Positions 25,466 through 34,878 of a DNA stretch of 36,864 bases are shown here, one piece after another (position 1 is the stretch's first letter; each line of letters begins with the position of its first letter). The stretch is taken from assembly GCA_023269235.1 (NCBI GenBank), contig JAHFTW010000015.1:1-36864 (forward strand). The letters run 5' to 3'. Source of the DNA: Thermoplasmata archaeon (GTDB lineage Archaea > Thermoplasmatota > E2 > JACPAO01 > JAHFTW01). A program made the position numbers and the translations under genes. The notes below the pieces were generated by a model, which saw only the letters and a program-made list of their open reading frames with translations, did no database searches and was not told where the DNA came from.

Positions 25466-25477
25466 CCGCTTATGAAC
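25466..25477 (+). promoter_or_regulatory. TATA-like promoter of tRNA-Ile
   Basis: CCGCTTATGAAC is centred about 29 nt before the mature tRNA 5' end. A second AT-rich core, CCCTTAAG, lies nearer at 25480-25487. Confidence 0.45.
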
Positions 25478-25500
25478 CACCCTTAAGTCGGCGGCCCTGC

Positions 25501-25574
25501 GGGCCGGTAGCTTAGACTGGTTGAGCACCCGGCTGATAACCGGGAGGTCCACGGTTCGAATCCGTGCCGGCCCA
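25501..25574 (+). tRNA. tRNA-Ile (anticodon GAU)
   Basis: 74 nt. GGGCCGG pairs fully with CCGGCCC; the discriminator is A, and no CCA is encoded. The anticodon stem CCCGG/CCGGG holds CTGATAA, giving GAU. The T arm is CACGG-TTCGAAT-CCGTG. No intron. Confidence 0.96.
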
Positions 25575-25621: not shown

Positions 25622-25696
25622 GGGCGCGTAGCCTAGCCCGGATAAGGCACCGGACTTCTAAGCCGACTGTCGTGGGTTCGAATCCCACCGCGCCCG
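25622..25696 (+). tRNA. tRNA-Arg (anticodon UCU) with an irregular anticodon stem
   Basis: 75 nt. GGGCGCG pairs with CGCGCCC, discriminator G, no encoded CCA. The D arm is GCCT/AGGC and the T arm GTGGG-TTCGAAT-CCCAC. The loop CTTCTAA gives UCU. The anticodon stem is CCGGA/GCCGA: only the three middle pairs are Watson-Crick, with C27-A43 and A31-G39 mismatched. It lies 47 nt after tRNA-Ile and may be cut from the same transcript. Confidence 0.88.
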
Positions 25697-26653: not shown

Positions 26654-28393
26654 ATGCACGAAGAGCGGCGCCGGGAGGTTGTGGCCCTGTTCGAGGCGCA
26701 CGGCGCCATCGCCGAGCCCGCCCTCGTGGACGACTTGAGCCTCGCTCCGGACGGCGCGGTGCGCGTGCAGGCCGTCCTCGCCAAGCTCCCGGAGGTTCCC
26801 TTCCACTTCGACCGCGCGCTTTGGTCGCGCCTCGAGCAGCTCCAGGCCGAGGCCACGGCCCCGCCGCCGCCCGCGCCCACGCTCTCTGCCGAAGCAGAGC
26901 GGGCACGCAAAGAGGCGATGCGCCGCAACGCCGCCCGCGTGTACGACTCCAAGGCCGAGACGGCCGCAGCCGCCGAGGGCAACGAGGCGGAGGGCGACGC
27001 CGAAGCGGAGCCCGACGACGACGGCGCCATGGAGGTCGAGGCGGGACCTGTGGACGCCGCCGCAGAGGCGCACGGCTTCCGCGTCGAGCCCCGCGGCGAC
27101 TGGCAGCCACTCGCGGCGCAGCACCCGGCGCAACTCGACGTCGTCGCCGACATGACTGGCAACTCGACTTGCGAGGGGACGACCGCCGACTTCGCGACGT
27201 ACTTCCAGGCGCGCTTTGCCCAGATCGGCAAGATGCTGCGCAACCGCCGCGAGCTCCGCAACGCCACCCCGGTCGAGCGGCTCAAGCCGGGCATGCAGGA
27301 GGTCCAGCTCATCGTCATGGTGGACGAGGTGGCGACGACCAAGAACGGCCACCGCCGCCTCACCGTCCAGGACGGCACCGGCTCCATCACGGTCCTGGTG
27401 CGCGCCGACGAGCAGGCGCTCATGGCGATGGCGAACTCCGTCGTGCCCGACGAGGTCCTCGGCATCGTCGGCCAGGTCTCCGGCAAAGGCGACCTCGTCT
27501 TCGCGACAGCCATCGTGCGCCCCGACATTCCGCTCCCCGACAGCGCGACGCCGCGCGGTGCTGCGGTGCCAGTGATGGCGGCTTTCCTCAGCGACGTCCA
27601 CGTCGGCAGCAAGACCTTCCTCAACGAGAACTGGAAACGCATGCTGCGCTGGCTCAACGGCCACGGTGCGACCAAGCGCGAGCGCGACGCCGCGGGCCGC
27701 GTCAAGTACCTCGTCATCCCCGGCGACCTCGTGGACGGCGTCGGCATCTACCCCGGCCAGCAAGACGAGCTCTCCATCCCGGACATCTACGACCAGTATG
27801 GCGCCTTCGGCGACTGGATGGACACCATCCCGGAGCACGTCCAGGTCATCATCCAGCCTGGCAACCACGACGCGAGCCGTCCCGCCGAGCCGCAGCCGGC
27901 CTTCTCGCAGGAGGTCCGCACGCGCTTCGACCACCACGCGACGCGCTTCCTCGCCAACCCCGCGACGTTCAAGCTGCACGGCGTCACGACGCTCGGCTAC
28001 CACGGCAACTCGCTCATCGACTACGCGGCGAGCGTTGCCGGCTTCGAGTTCAGCCAGCCTCTCCCGATCATGAAGCAGATGCTGCAAAGCCGTCACGTCG
28101 CCGCCATCTATGGCGAGCGCACGCCGGTCGCACCGGAACACCACGACTACCTCGTCATCAACACGGTCCCAGACATTTTCGTCACCGGCCACGTCCACGT
28201 CCCCGGCATCGAGGGCTACCGCGGCGTGCAGATGGTGAACTCGGGCACCTGGCAGAGCCAGACGACGTACCAGAAGATGCTCAACTTCACCCCGGACCCC
28301 TGCAAGATGCCGTTGATGGACCTGCAGACCTTGCGCGGAACCCTCGTCGATTTCCAGACGCCACAAGACGCTGGCCAACTTGGCGTCTCCTAA
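26654..28393 (+). CDS. polB: DNA polymerase D small subunit DP1 (3'-5' exonuclease)
   Basis: 579 residues. DP1 is the proofreading subunit of the archaeal replicative polymerase PolD. After an N-terminal helical region and an acidic Ala-rich linker (about residues 75-130) comes an OB fold (about 210-295). The calcineurin-like nuclease domain has Asp314/His316 (FLSDVHVG), PGDLVDG, His405 (PGNHDASR) and His513/His515 (VTGHVHVPG). All metal ligands seem intact, so exonuclease activity is expected. The last ~25 codons are unusual for the gene (TTG, GGA, CCA, CAA, GCT, CTT and a TAA stop). A second version of the final 14 codons, in GC-rich codons with TGA, lies at 28516-28560. Confidence 0.95.
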   Translation: MHEERRREVVALFEAHGAIAEPALVDDLSLAPDGAVRVQAVLAKLPEVPFHFDRALWSRLEQLQAEATAPPPPAPTLSAEAERARKEAMRRNAARVYDSKAETAAAAEGNEAEGDAEAEPDDDGAMEVEAGPVDAAAEAHGFRVEPRGDWQPLAAQHPAQLDVVADMTGNSTCEGTTADFATYFQARFAQIGKMLRNRRELRNATPVERLKPGMQEVQLIVMVDEVATTKNGHRRLTVQDGTGSITVLVRADEQALMAMANSVVPDEVLGIVGQVSGKGDLVFATAIVRPDIPLPDSATPRGAAVPVMAAFLSDVHVGSKTFLNENWKRMLRWLNGHGATKRERDAAGRVKYLVIPGDLVDGVGIYPGQQDELSIPDIYDQYGAFGDWMDTIPEHVQVIIQPGNHDASRPAEPQPAFSQEVRTRFDHHATRFLANPATFKLHGVTTLGYHGNSLIDYAASVAGFEFSQPLPIMKQMLQSRHVAAIYGERTPVAPEHHDYLVINTVPDIFVTGHVHVPGIEGYRGVQMVNSGTWQSQTTYQKMLNFTPDPCKMPLMDLQTLRGTLVDFQTPQDAGQLGVS

Positions 28394-28515
28394 CCGGCCT
28401 GCGGGGCCGAGCGGAGCGAGTGCCCCGCCGTCCAACGTGATCGATCTTGGCCGAGGGCGCGCAGCGCCGTCGGCTTTGAGCCGGCGCGAAGTGCCGGGTC
28501 TTCGTTTGAAGGTCG
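28394..28515. repeat. Hairpin-rich spacer between the two copies of the DP1 tail
   Basis: 122 bp without a gene. It contains an inverted repeat GCGGGGC (28401-28407) / GCCCCGC (28422-28428) around a GAGCGGAGCGAG loop, a 5-bp hairpin CGGCT-TTG-AGCCG (28471-28483), and CGAAG/CTTCG arms near 28488-28504. Such GCGAGCG/GCGCAGCG sequences look like REP or small-MITE arms. Similar strings occur in the secY spacer. Confidence 0.5.
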
Positions 28516-28560
28516 GTGGATTTCCAGACCCCCCAGGAAGCCGGCCAACTCGGCGCCTGA
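28516..28560 (+). pseudogene. Displaced copy of the DP1 C-terminal 14 codons plus stop
   Basis: Translates as VDFQTPQEAGQLGA and stop; the DP1 tail at 28346-28393 reads VDFQTPQDAGQLGVS and stop. Of 14 aligned codons, eight differ: six silently and two with D/E and V/A changes. The homology starts abruptly at the Val codon; a stop codon lies in frame three codons upstream, so the copy is not expressed as part of a larger protein. It uses codons typical of the region (ACC, CCC, CAG, GCC, CTC, TGA), unlike the tail now on the gene. Confidence 0.85.
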
Positions 28561-32430: not shown

Positions 32431-32976
32431 TCAGGCCGGGGCCGAGGCCTCGGCCGGGAGCCTGGACTGCCCGGGGGCCCGCTCTTGGTCAGCGAAGACC
32501 ATGCCCCCATCGGAAGCGTAGCGGGCGAAGGTGGGGAACGGCACGAGCGGCGTGAGGCGCATGACATCATGGAACGATCGCGCGGGGCGCAACTGGTCAG
32601 GCACAAGCGCGGGCGGCAGCACCGCGTACGGACTGGTCCAACCCCGCACCCGGCGCACCTCCTCCAGGAACCGGTTCACCCTGAGGCGCCGCTCCAGCTC
32701 CTCCGCCGTCGGCGACGGGGCGTGGCTGGCGCCGTGGCAGAGCGCGCACAGCATGACGAGGTTGTCCCAGCGGAACGAGAACGTGACCCCCTCTTTGCGG
32801 CCGACGGCACGGCTGAAGGCGACGCAGTCGGTGACGTGCGCCATCTCCAGGTCCTCCCGCGACCCGCAGCAACGGCACCGCTTGCGGTCGCGCACGAGGA
32901 TGTGCGGGCGCCAGCGCTGCTGCATGCGCGACCGGTATTCCTGGTAGGGCTCGCGGGCGAAACGGCGGCGCGCCAT
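32431..32976 (-). CDS. HNH endonuclease next to the secY tail repeats
   Basis: 181 residues from ATG 32976, with GGGTGAG about 8 nt upstream. The HNH core is complete: zinc pairs C34/C37 (RCRCCG) and C77/C80 (LCALCHG), with His47 (EMAHVTD), Asn72 (DNLVML) and His81 as the HNH residues. The N-terminus is very basic (MARRRFAREPYQEYRSRMQQ), as in DNA-binding nucleases. The C-terminal ~80 residues match no domain I know. HNH proteins serve in homing, restriction, phage packaging and mobile elements; no methylase or intron lies nearby. The gene lies 64 bp from the outermost copy of the secY tail, on the same strand as secY, which makes a homing-type role worth testing. Codon use is like its neighbours. 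Confidence 0.85.
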   Translation of the reverse strand: MARRRFAREPYQEYRSRMQQRWRPHILVRDRKRCRCCGSREDLEMAHVTDCVAFSRAVGRKEGVTFSFRWDNLVMLCALCHGASHAPSPTAEELERRLRVNRFLEEVRRVRGWTSPYAVLPPALVPDQLRPARSFHDVMRLTPLVPFPTFARYASDGGMVFADQERAPGQSRLPAEASAPA

Positions 32977-33044
32977 GGCATCGGCTCACCCTATGGGAAA
33001 CGGTATGAGGCTTGCGCCGAGGGAAGTGAAACGGATTTACTACG

Positions 33045-33067
33045 CGGCGCCAAAGAACCCACGGAGC
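33045..33067 (-). repeat. 23-bp direct repeat, HNH-proximal copy of the secY tail
   Basis: Identical to 33278-33300 inside secY, 233 bp away. In frame (33040-33069, minus strand) it reads ELRGFFGAA and stop, against MLRGFFGAE in secY. The flanking bases differ on both sides, so the match is exactly 23 bp, like an attachment-site core or target duplication. Confidence 0.8.
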
Positions 33068-33128
33068 TCCCAGCCTTGCGAGCAAGGCCGGGGCAAGCAC
33101 GCCTTCTTTGTCGCTCGTGGCCTTCGGC

Positions 33129-33177
33129 CTACTCGGGTCCGAAGAAGCCGCGCAGCATCGGATGCATTTCCATCGCC
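33129..33177 (-). pseudogene. Displaced copy of the secY C-terminal 15 codons
   Basis: Minus-strand translation AMEMHPMLRGFFGPE and TAG; the gene's own end is AMEMHPMLRGFFGAE and TAA. Six codons differ silently and one changes A to P. The displaced copy uses CCG, CTG, CGC, GGC and TTC, as elsewhere in the window; the gene's own tail uses CCA, CTC, CGT, GGG and TTT. The first 18 bases (33160-33177) are identical to 33304-33321. Confidence 0.87.
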
Positions 33178-33179
33178 CC

Positions 33180-33204
33180 CTCCGGCAATCTTCGATTGCC
33201 GGAG
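33180..33204. repeat. Strong 11-bp hairpin beside the displaced secY tail
   Basis: CTCCGGCAATC, loop TTC, GATTGCCGGAG: a perfect 11-bp stem. It begins 3 bp beyond the displaced tail on the secY-proximal side. Confidence 0.7.
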
Positions 33205-33272
33205 AGTCCGCTCGCGCTACGGCGCTCGCTGCGCTGGAAACGCCCAATCGCTACCGGGTCTTTGGCCTCGTT

Positions 33273-34838
33273 TTACTCGGCGCCAAAGAACCCACGGAGC
33301 ATTGGATGCATTTCCATCGCCTGCTCCTTCGCGATCTGCTCGTACATGCGCATGAAGATGCCCACGCAGAGCAGCAAGCCGGTGCCCGAGGCCTGGCCGA
33401 CGGTGCCGATCATGTCGGCGAAGGCGGCAAGGGCGCCGACGGTTGCGCCACCGATGACGGTGAGGGTGGGGATGTAGCGCTCGAGGACCTTCTGCAGGAT
33501 GCGGGGGTCCTGGCGGAAGCCGGGGATCTGCATGCCGGACTTGCCGATCTGCTTGGCCACGTCGTGCGGGCCCATGTTCGTGGTCTCGACCCAGAACTTG
33601 GCGAACATGATGGAGCCGCCCACGAAGAGGCCCAGGAAGAGGCTGACCTTGATCAGGATCTGCCACCAGACGTGCCCGTGCACCGACGCCGCGTAGCGCG
33701 GGTCGAAGAGCGGCAGGAACCAGTCGTTGAGGCCGCGGAAGGCCGTGAGATACCAGGCGCCGCCGGCGACCGGGCTCGTGGAGCCGGAGCCAGTCTCGTA
33801 GGTGCCGACCCACCAGGAGTGCCCGATGACGGGGATCTGGCTGAAGGTGGGGTGCTGCCACAGGAGCAGGCTGAAGATGTTCACGTTGGCGAGCAGGGCG
33901 CCCATCAGGATGACGGGGATGTTGCTGGCGTAGATGAGGCGCAGCGGGTAGCGGCCACGGGCGCCGCGGACCTTGCCGTGGGCAAGGGGCAACTCGATGC
34001 GTGTCGCTTCCGCGTACACCACGAACAAGAAGATCATCACGGTGCCGAGGAAGGCGATGATGGGGTTCGGGAACGCGTTGCCGCCGATGAACATCTGCTC
34101 GAAGCCGCCGCTGTGGACGAGACTGCTCACGTCGCGGTTGAGGAAGACGTAGAACACCATGGGGATGGTGCCGACGGGCGGGTTCGAGACCGGGTCGAAG
34201 GCGAGGCCGGTGCCGGCGTGCTGGAAGGACAGCGAGCCCTGGAACAGGTTCTGCGAGACGCCGGCCGCGATGAAGAGCGAGATGCCCGAGCCGATGCCCC
34301 ACTTGCTGATGAGCTCGTCCATCAAGAAGACGACGATGGCGCCGAGGGCCAGCTGGGCGACCACGACGCTGCGCGCGTTGAAGGAGCCGACCTGGCTCAC
34401 CAGGCGCTCGTCGGGGTTGAGGAAGCCGTACACCTGCGGGATGGCCTCGATGAAGATGAACAGGAGCACCATGATCTTCTGGGCGCCCTGGTAGATCGAC
34501 TTGTCCTCCTCCTTGGTGAGGTCGAGCTTGATGATCTTGGCGCCGGTGAACAGCTGCATGACGATGCTGCCGGTCACGATGGGCCCGATGCCGAGGTGCA
34601 TGAGGGTGCCGGACTGGCCGGCCAGGATGGCGCGGAAGTTGGCGAAGATGTCCAGCTGGTTCTGCGAGACGCCGAACAGCGGGATGTTGCTCAGCATGAA
34701 GTAGAGCAGCAGGCAGACCGTCGTCCAGAGGAGCTTGGTCTTGAAGGAAACGTGCCCCTCGGGCTTGCGGACCGTCGGCCACCGCTTGATGAGGGGCTCG
34801 AGGGCGTAGAGTGCGCTGCGGCGTTGGGTCTCAGCCAT
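33273..34838 (-). CDS. secY: Preprotein translocase subunit SecY (Sec61 alpha)
   Basis: 521 residues with ten TM helices. It forms the protein-conducting channel, with SecE and Sec61-beta. The N-terminal amphipathic region is LYALEPLIKRWPTVRKPEGH, followed by TM1 with the plug segment and the archaeal-type long extracytoplasmic loops. The cytosolic loop KVRGARGRYPLRLIYASNIP (between TM6 and TM7) and GFRQDPRILQKVLERYIP are ribosome-contact features. ATG 34838 was chosen over a TTG 30 nt upstream. Unusually, a terminator-like tract and its own TATA-like box separate it from rpl15. The last ten or so codons are AT-richer than the rest, and two more copies of the tail lie downstream. Confidence 0.97.
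   Translation of the reverse strand: MAETQRRSALYALEPLIKRWPTVRKPEGHVSFKTKLLWTTVCLLLYFMLSNIPLFGVSQNQLDIFANFRAILAGQSGTLMHLGIGPIVTGSIVMQLFTGAKIIKLDLTKEEDKSIYQGAQKIMVLLFIFIEAIPQVYGFLNPDERLVSQVGSFNARSVVVAQLALGAIVVFLMDELISKWGIGSGISLFIAAGVSQNLFQGSLSFQHAGTGLAFDPVSNPPVGTIPMVFYVFLNRDVSSLVHSGGFEQMFIGGNAFPNPIIAFLGTVMIFLFVVYAEATRIELPLAHGKVRGARGRYPLRLIYASNIPVILMGALLANVNIFSLLLWQHPTFSQIPVIGHSWWVGTYETGSGSTSPVAGGAWYLTAFRGLNDWFLPLFDPRYAASVHGHVWWQILIKVSLFLGLFVGGSIMFAKFWVETTNMGPHDVAKQIGKSGMQIPGFRQDPRILQKVLERYIPTLTVIGGATVGALAAFADMIGTVGQASGTGLLLCVGIFMRMYEQIAKEQAMEMHPMLRGFFGAE
33278..33300 (-). repeat. 23-bp direct repeat, copy inside the secY 3' end
   Basis: Encodes LRGFFGA plus flanking bases near the secY stop. 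It is an exact match to 33045-33067; the segment between the copies (210 bp) contains the displaced native-style tail and the 11-bp hairpin. Confidence 0.8.
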
Positions 34839-34878
34839 GTTGACCAACCGGGGGAATGAGCCGCCCAAGAGGGGGTGC

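Follow-up and report, generated by a model that had tools for sequence, protein, structure and literature searches.

We analysed the end of the secY gene in a contig of 36,864 bp (contig C14 of genome G000, taken whole and called the window below), where further copies of the coding tail of the gene lie behind its stop codon. G000 is GC-rich, and the closest named secY records belong to metagenome-assembled genomes of Thermoplasmatota/Euryarchaeota. For comparison we used G001, of the same family, and G002 and G003, of the same order. We write T for a copy of a coding tail including its stop, E for the spacer or element between two tails, and L plus a number for sampled stretches. Behind the complete secY stand a displaced tail with a stop of its own and a truncated third tail, separated by spacers (Table 1).

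Table 1. Coordinates of tail copies, spacers and neighbouring features in the window
Feature	Position	Strand	Description
secY coding sequence (Sec61-type SecY)	33273..34868	-	PF00344, 1.7e-68; NCBIfam NF006341, 9e-106; stop TAA at 33273-33275
secY T1, own (proximal) tail	33273..33327	-	reads MEMHPMLRGFFGAE, then stop; DNA match to T2, score 180-185, begins 55 nt before the end of the stop
secY E1, spacer between T1 and T2	33184..33272	-	89 bp; homologous to the G001 secY spacer
secY T2, displaced tail	33129..33183	-	reads MEMHPMLRGFFGPE, then its own stop TAG; DNA match to T1
secY E2, second spacer	33068..33128	-	position between T2 and T3
secY T3, truncated third tail	33041..33067	-	26/27 positions as in T1
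DP1 gene (PolD small subunit), tail duplicated	26654..28393	+	DNA_pol_E_B, PF04042, 1.1e-15
DP1 T1	28346..28393	+	reads VDFQTPQDAGQLGVS, then stop; match score 135, 35/43 nt
DP1 E	28394..28515	+	122 bp; long form of a six-copy repeat family (repeat search)
DP1 T2, displaced tail	28516..28560	+	reads VDFQTPQEAGQLGA, then stop; protein and DNA match to T1
HNH-domain open reading frame	32431..32976	-	181 aa; Pfam HNH 0.0026 (below cut-off); PHROG 589, 8e-9; outside the array
tRNA gene	25501-25574		
tRNA gene	25622-25696		

A previous sequence-only reading of the window had described three versions of the secY end, and all three are present. Of the 14 codons compared between T1 and T2, six carry silent changes and one a replacement (Ala/Pro), the same numbers of differences that it had stated, and T3 includes the exact 23-bp match to T1 that it had named. 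The 18-bp block of identity that it had pointed out also exists, but the duplication, which begins at 33327/33183, reaches slightly upstream of the 49 bp it had given. Its broader picture, in which something like an insertion took place at the 3' end of secY and left a displaced tail, silent recoding and an intact SecY, agrees with our results. Its view of T2 as the native tail fared less well: T2 is 6 nt away from the own tail of G001 secY (42 nt compared), but T1 is nearly as close (7 nt). The T2 match scored 180 in a DNA-level scan of 717 gene ends, a scan that does not favour silent changes. By eye, the identity between secY tails peaks at their 5' end.

The secY gene is followed by two tail copies in G001 and by one in G002, and it has a single tail in G003. 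We fetched 80 secY loci from genome_contigs, 78 of them with a readable tail; copies within 600 nt were found in two of the 78, the G001 and G002 records. An assembly artefact is unlikely because the same architecture occurs in three separate genome assemblies. In both G000 and G001, copies 1 and 3 are alike and copy 2 is different. E1 matched the G001 secY spacer with a local score of 60 (shuffled maximum 26), and no comparable match was found elsewhere in the samples. The region from 33041 to 33330 folds 5.9 standard deviations below shuffled sequences, and the corresponding G001 region 5.0. Both G000 tail copies encode a Met at a position occupied by Val or Ile in the 29 other secY tails that we read.

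Tail copies at other genes

We scanned a 730-kb sample of G000 (window included) for tail copies at the DNA level. Gene ends were taken from open frames, GC-filtered in G000-G003, rather than from curated genes; an unfiltered protein scan was unusable owing to spurious GC-rich frames. At a score of at least 100, 14 of the 717 filtered gene ends had a match, compared with 1.0 per mismatched control set; four were judged false and ten kept. The rows removed before the count were the minus-strand end 2745 of L169 (a P0/P1 paralogue) and three L170 matches (scaffold gap, repeat proteins). A protein scan at a score of at least 50 returned 13 matches against 0.0 in the control, four of them judged false (the same three L170 matches and the P0/P1 paralogue). 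Other candidates were rejected as well: L045, L062 and L067 are intra-protein repeats read antisense, L182 consists of tandem paralogues, the plus-strand L038 match is of low complexity, and weak matches distant from the stop were dropped.

The ten G000 genes kept from the DNA scan are secY, DP1, TFB, those for a DUF7121 protein, an acyl-CoA dehydrogenase, aIF5A, a DUF1297/DUF1246 protein (which we take to be PurP), a DUF7318 protein and an epimerase-family protein (Pfam), and that for a 103-aa protein with a bifunctional-nuclease-domain match below threshold. The protein scan and an element search added an eleventh array, at a TtuA-like gene. Two arrays were found in 87 kb of G001 and six in 324 kb of G002, the latter at genes including those for an enoyl-CoA hydratase, a C5 methylase, an AIR-carboxylase-domain protein and a HYPK-UBA protein (presumably NAC-like). 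No Pfam match was obtained for two array genes, one each in G001 and G002. The total is 19 arrays, 16 of them at genes other than secY.

Within our samples, arrays were found only in G000, G001 and G002. None of 229 gene ends in the GC-matched G003 (0.678 versus 0.687) had a tail copy at a DNA score of 100 or a protein score of 40. Together, G004 and G010 gave 0 of 558 at a protein score of 50 and two at a score of 40 (control 0.8), and G040 gave one of 410. This G040 case, in an AT-rich outgroup, is a diverged 71-nt downstream copy at gene end 3928 of L222 that is interrupted by stop codons.

Anatomy of the arrays

The base unit is tail-element-tail, and the arrays have the form T(ET)n, usually with T at the end (by eye); the enoyl-CoA hydratase and methylase arrays hold N gaps, so their terminal unit cannot be judged. 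Such gaps inside G002 tail arrays lie at about 15300-15640 of L063 and 9200-9560 of L073, and short-read assemblies may lose arrays. Counted back from the last base of the stop, the copies in the 17 arrays that we aligned start at a distance of 21-55 nt. In nine of the 17, the match between copies breaks off close to the stop, at -5 to +4 nt; in the L156 array, 40 of 42 nt are identical and the match ends at +2. The idea that it always halts at the stop codon was dropped: the first scan had looked just 3 nt past the stop, and a longer window gave nine of 17. By eye, some arrays have stretches of identity at the starts of their tails.

Spacers measure 24-143 bp; by eye, most contain a strong hairpin close to the displaced tail. 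A general AGCGNAGCGA signal was discarded, its enrichment being mild only (25 versus 16.7 expected in G000), as was the notion of an inverted tail piece in every spacer. The NAC-like array of G002 (L073, 19506-19790) has at least three tail units, of which 1 and 3 are alike and 2 is different; judged by eye, each unit seems to retain a hairpin across its stop, and the changes in these hairpins are matched.

A spacer family shared by unrelated genes

Over 124 bp, the spacers of DP1 and PurP are 92% identical. They belong to a family with six copies in G000 (59-123 bp), which form hairpins and are conserved in sequence. One copy has a compensated stem change, from GGGGC/GCCCC to GGGAC/GTCCC. The ends of the family show only a short imperfect terminal match (by eye). 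Short forms (59-68 bp) lie at four places, the TtuA-like tail and three sites without a tail copy, where the flanks match with scores of 55-60 as compared with 100 at the TtuA-like gene. The family has in all probability moved, because it sits in the tails of three unrelated genes (DP1, PurP and the TtuA-like gene).

In the TtuA-like gene (L244; G000 C10, near 116.1-116.2 kb), the own copy continues into E and takes its stop within E, while the displaced downstream copy has the stop directly after the tail and an intact-looking end. This arrangement points to an entry of E into the native tail.

We compared the same genes in the relatives; in the arrays, the downstream match of the tail scores at least 100. 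Single tails (best downstream match 35-55) were found for PurP and aIF5A in G001, G002 and G003, for DP1 in G002 and for secY in G003. These single-tailed loci are empty sites. For DP1, G001 yielded no relative, and the one in G003 lies at a contig end.

A 29-nt match to an array spacer of L040 (86% identical) lies at 25477-25505 of the window and ends at the edge of the first tRNA gene. The two tRNAs were the only known RNA families in the window at the gathering threshold.

Silent divergence between copies

In trimmed secY tails, the ratio of silent to replacement differences is 6:1 in G000, 10:0 in G001 and 7:0 in G002; untrimmed, with junction codons, it is 6:2, 10:0 and 7:1. The silent changes in G002 include a TCG/AGC serine switch. 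Across the 15 arrays detected at the DNA level, we counted 45 silent and 17 replacement differences without trimming, a count that omits two of the 17 arrays, which fell below its cut-off, and that we prefer to the hand-trimmed 59:10. The replacement fraction was 0.27, compared with 0.39 ± 0.06 expected if the own tail alone were constrained (P=0.021). Mismatches fell on the third codon base in 43 of 67 cases, which alone is compatible with a freely decaying second copy (P=0.41). Third copies decay more than second copies (6:10 versus 59:10, hand-aligned, Fisher 2e-4). A preference for AT-richer codons in T1 than in T2 was not convincing across pairs (26 versus 15). For most of their history both secY copies seem to have served as working tails, through exchange between related strains or through re-use.

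Discussion

Our best explanation, to which we give about an even chance, is that hairpin-bearing mini-elements insert at gene ends with duplication of the tail, and that tails were later exchanged at secY. Small, mostly hairpin-rich elements of 24-143 bp would enter gene 3' ends in this archaeal order, and entry would duplicate the last ~20-55 bp of coding sequence with the stop, yielding T-E-T. The gene would retain a complete tail, with T1 as the newcomer and the old tail pushed behind the element, and repeated events at one gene would build T(ET)n arrays. The tail copies would thus arise through duplication at insertion, and the mobilising enzyme would work in trans. The strong silent divergence at secY would have arisen because tail units were subsequently swapped with those of related strains. 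We also put forward, as a tentative and rather doubtful extension, an undescribed insertion system whose targets are core genes at their stop-codon ends and which copies the tail as its target duplication. It would build polarised arrays in the manner of clustered regularly interspaced short palindromic repeats (CRISPR), with displaced tails kept translatable so that they can return to use when a unit is lost or exchanged.

Several observations weigh against insertion by such elements. No mobilising enzyme was found: Y1 transposases (Y1_Tnp) were missing from G000-G003 (genomes 74-93% complete), Cas1 from the same four incomplete order genomes and reverse transcriptases, as would mark a group II intron or another retroelement, from 21 genomes including these four, with DDE transposases and tyrosine or serine integrases outside the search. 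Known transposons do not usually have direct repeats as long as 20-55 bp. Nor does the stop form a sharp boundary in every array: eight of the 17 matches run on further past it, four of them to +11 to +15 and four to +29 or more; in these last four (acyl-CoA dehydrogenase, aIF5A, NAC-like and methylase), whole units repeat. Inverted tail pieces, which simple insertion does not predict, occur in seven of the 17 spacers (at most 2 of 200 shuffles), and most of the spacers have no sequence in common. Overall, the replacement fraction speaks only mildly against neutral decay of the displaced copy; the strong signal comes from secY. Finally, about one tail copy was expected among the 79 gene ends of a fresh 80 kb of G000, but none was found; the only match with a score of 100 fell in another part of the tail.

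The silent differences lend themselves to another reading, which we hold possible but clearly less probable than insertion with tail duplication. A related strain's tail, together with its downstream hairpins, may have recombined into the gene end as a circle or a fragment crossing over within the tail. T1 would then be the congener's tail and T2 the native one, and no special element would be required. This would account for the 6, 10 and 7 silent codon differences between secY copies, with one replacement in all (three untrimmed), and for the peak of secY identity at the 5' end of T. The own and displaced PurP tails have residues in common that are absent from relatives, which fits as well, and the same signature is seen in fungal mitochondria in the consulted part of PMC3630166. 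However, imported tails leave unexplained why every join should lie within the final 20-55 nt, why near-identical young arrays exist (acyl-CoA dehydrogenase, L156) and why one E family occurs in three genes.

The inverted tail pieces and the strong folds are what would be expected if hairpins at gene ends provoked template switching or tandem duplication of the tail and its downstream sequence, and if a function of these hairpins at mRNA 3' ends retained the products. The longer repeat units of the acyl-CoA dehydrogenase, aIF5A, NAC-like and methylase arrays point the same way, as do the hairpins with matched changes over the stops of the NAC-like units. Yet most arrays end in T without a subsequent E (by eye), an E family is common to several genes, and GC-matched G003 had no tail copy in its 229 gene ends. 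We regard a local mutational origin as unlikely.

It is quite improbable that both tails are used, the element being removed from DNA or RNA in some cells so that the displaced tail must stay functional. Such use would explain why displaced secY tails are nearly intact in three genera, why the G000 and G001 secY spacers are homologous, and why second copies preserve the protein while third copies decay. But the proximal copy already has a stop, no splicing or excision signal was recognised (no program search was made for one), and the Met specific to G000 would require a parallel change in both copies.

The sequence-only reading had assigned the insertion to the HNH gene next to the array. This open reading frame starts (32976) 64 bp beyond T3 and lies outside the duplicated block, not between tails. 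No relative of its protein was found in G001-G003; among 80 genomes of the class, the search returned G000 itself and one HNH-domain match of 26% identity in G031. The gene is present in a single copy in G000, as compared with 16 non-secY genes with tail copies across G000, G001 and G002. No HNH-protein relative lies near the G001 or G002 arrays, in a search limited to its relatives and not extended to other nuclease families. We rejected the HNH protein as driver because the secY arrays of G001 and G002 exist without any relative of it, and because it is nearly absent from the class; the gene appears to be a bystander of the secY array. When relatives are compared at secY, as that reading had proposed, G003 does have a single tail, but G001 and G002 have tail copies without the HNH gene; these share the tail duplication and not the recoded tail itself, their silent changes being other ones. 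A viral origin was also dropped, for the nuclease as well as for the secY tail, since viral_contigs held neither a relative of the HNH protein nor a source of the tail. Cut-and-rescue homing, in which HNH would cut native secY tails and the element would supply a recoded, uncuttable one, suits the position of the gene, the recoded tail and the intact SecY, but is very improbable given secY arrays without an HNH relative, arrays at 16 other genes, a nuclease gene outside the T-E-T block and viral_contigs without a relative of its protein.

Comparison with known systems

A literature search over open-access titles and abstract openings found no description of such archaeal arrays. Mitochondrial double-hairpin and other repetitive hairpin-forming elements, including those of Allomyces, are GC-rich hairpins in scattered copies without an open reading frame, and the archaeal elements resemble them in all these respects. 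To our knowledge, the mitochondrial elements have no tail duplication, and their hosts are eukaryote organelles.

Insertion of mini-elements with tail duplication would also recall the miniature inverted-repeat transposable elements (MITEs) and repetitive extragenic palindromic (REP)-like elements of prokaryotes (the subject of PMC10969869 and PMC3733652), which are short, structured, multicopy, noncoding and presumably moved in trans. The DP1-type family is likewise short and structured, with several copies at unrelated sites; most other spacers do not have such copies. Unlike MITE/REP-like elements, the arrays involve ~20-55 bp coding-tail duplications, no Y1 transposase was found in G000-G003, and most spacers are single-copy in our samples.

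The choice of target is reminiscent of casposons. In the consulted excerpt of PMC6614799, casposon NitAR1-C1 sits in the 3' end of the EF-2 gene, a core archaeal gene, and the duplication is made like a CRISPR repeat. Casposons are described there as multi-gene elements with Cas1, whereas Cas1 was not detected in G000-G003, and the resemblance is in target choice only. The consulted portion of a review of archaeal tyrosine recombinases (PMC8371274) offers no direct parallel.

The closest known case is the hybrid genes of fungal mitochondria, formed via mobile endonuclease open reading frames in atp6, atp9, cox2 and nad3 of Glomus and atp6 of Allomyces, as far as the consulted text (PMC3630166) goes. 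In both systems the inserted C-terminus completes the gene and the native one is displaced behind it, and the protein is nearly unchanged while the DNA differs; at secY, the C-terminus is duplicated, the proximal copy completes the gene and the differences are mostly silent. The same text places a LAGLIDADG or GIY-YIG gene between the fungal tails, whereas the archaeal inserts are 24-143 bp long, affect many chromosomal genes and form arrays. The likeness in how the two work is strong, but membership in the fungal class fails because the insert is without a nuclease.

Arrays of this kind confuse the annotation of gene ends and coincide with assembly gaps in G002. If our explanation is true, harmless entry into essential genes by tail duplication would be a general safe-site solution in a compact genome, and a trans-acting enzyme that reads gene ends would follow a new targeting rule. 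Fungal mitochondria have this strategy together with a linked nuclease; the version described here looks chromosomal and archaeal, spread over many genes and free of the suspected nuclease.

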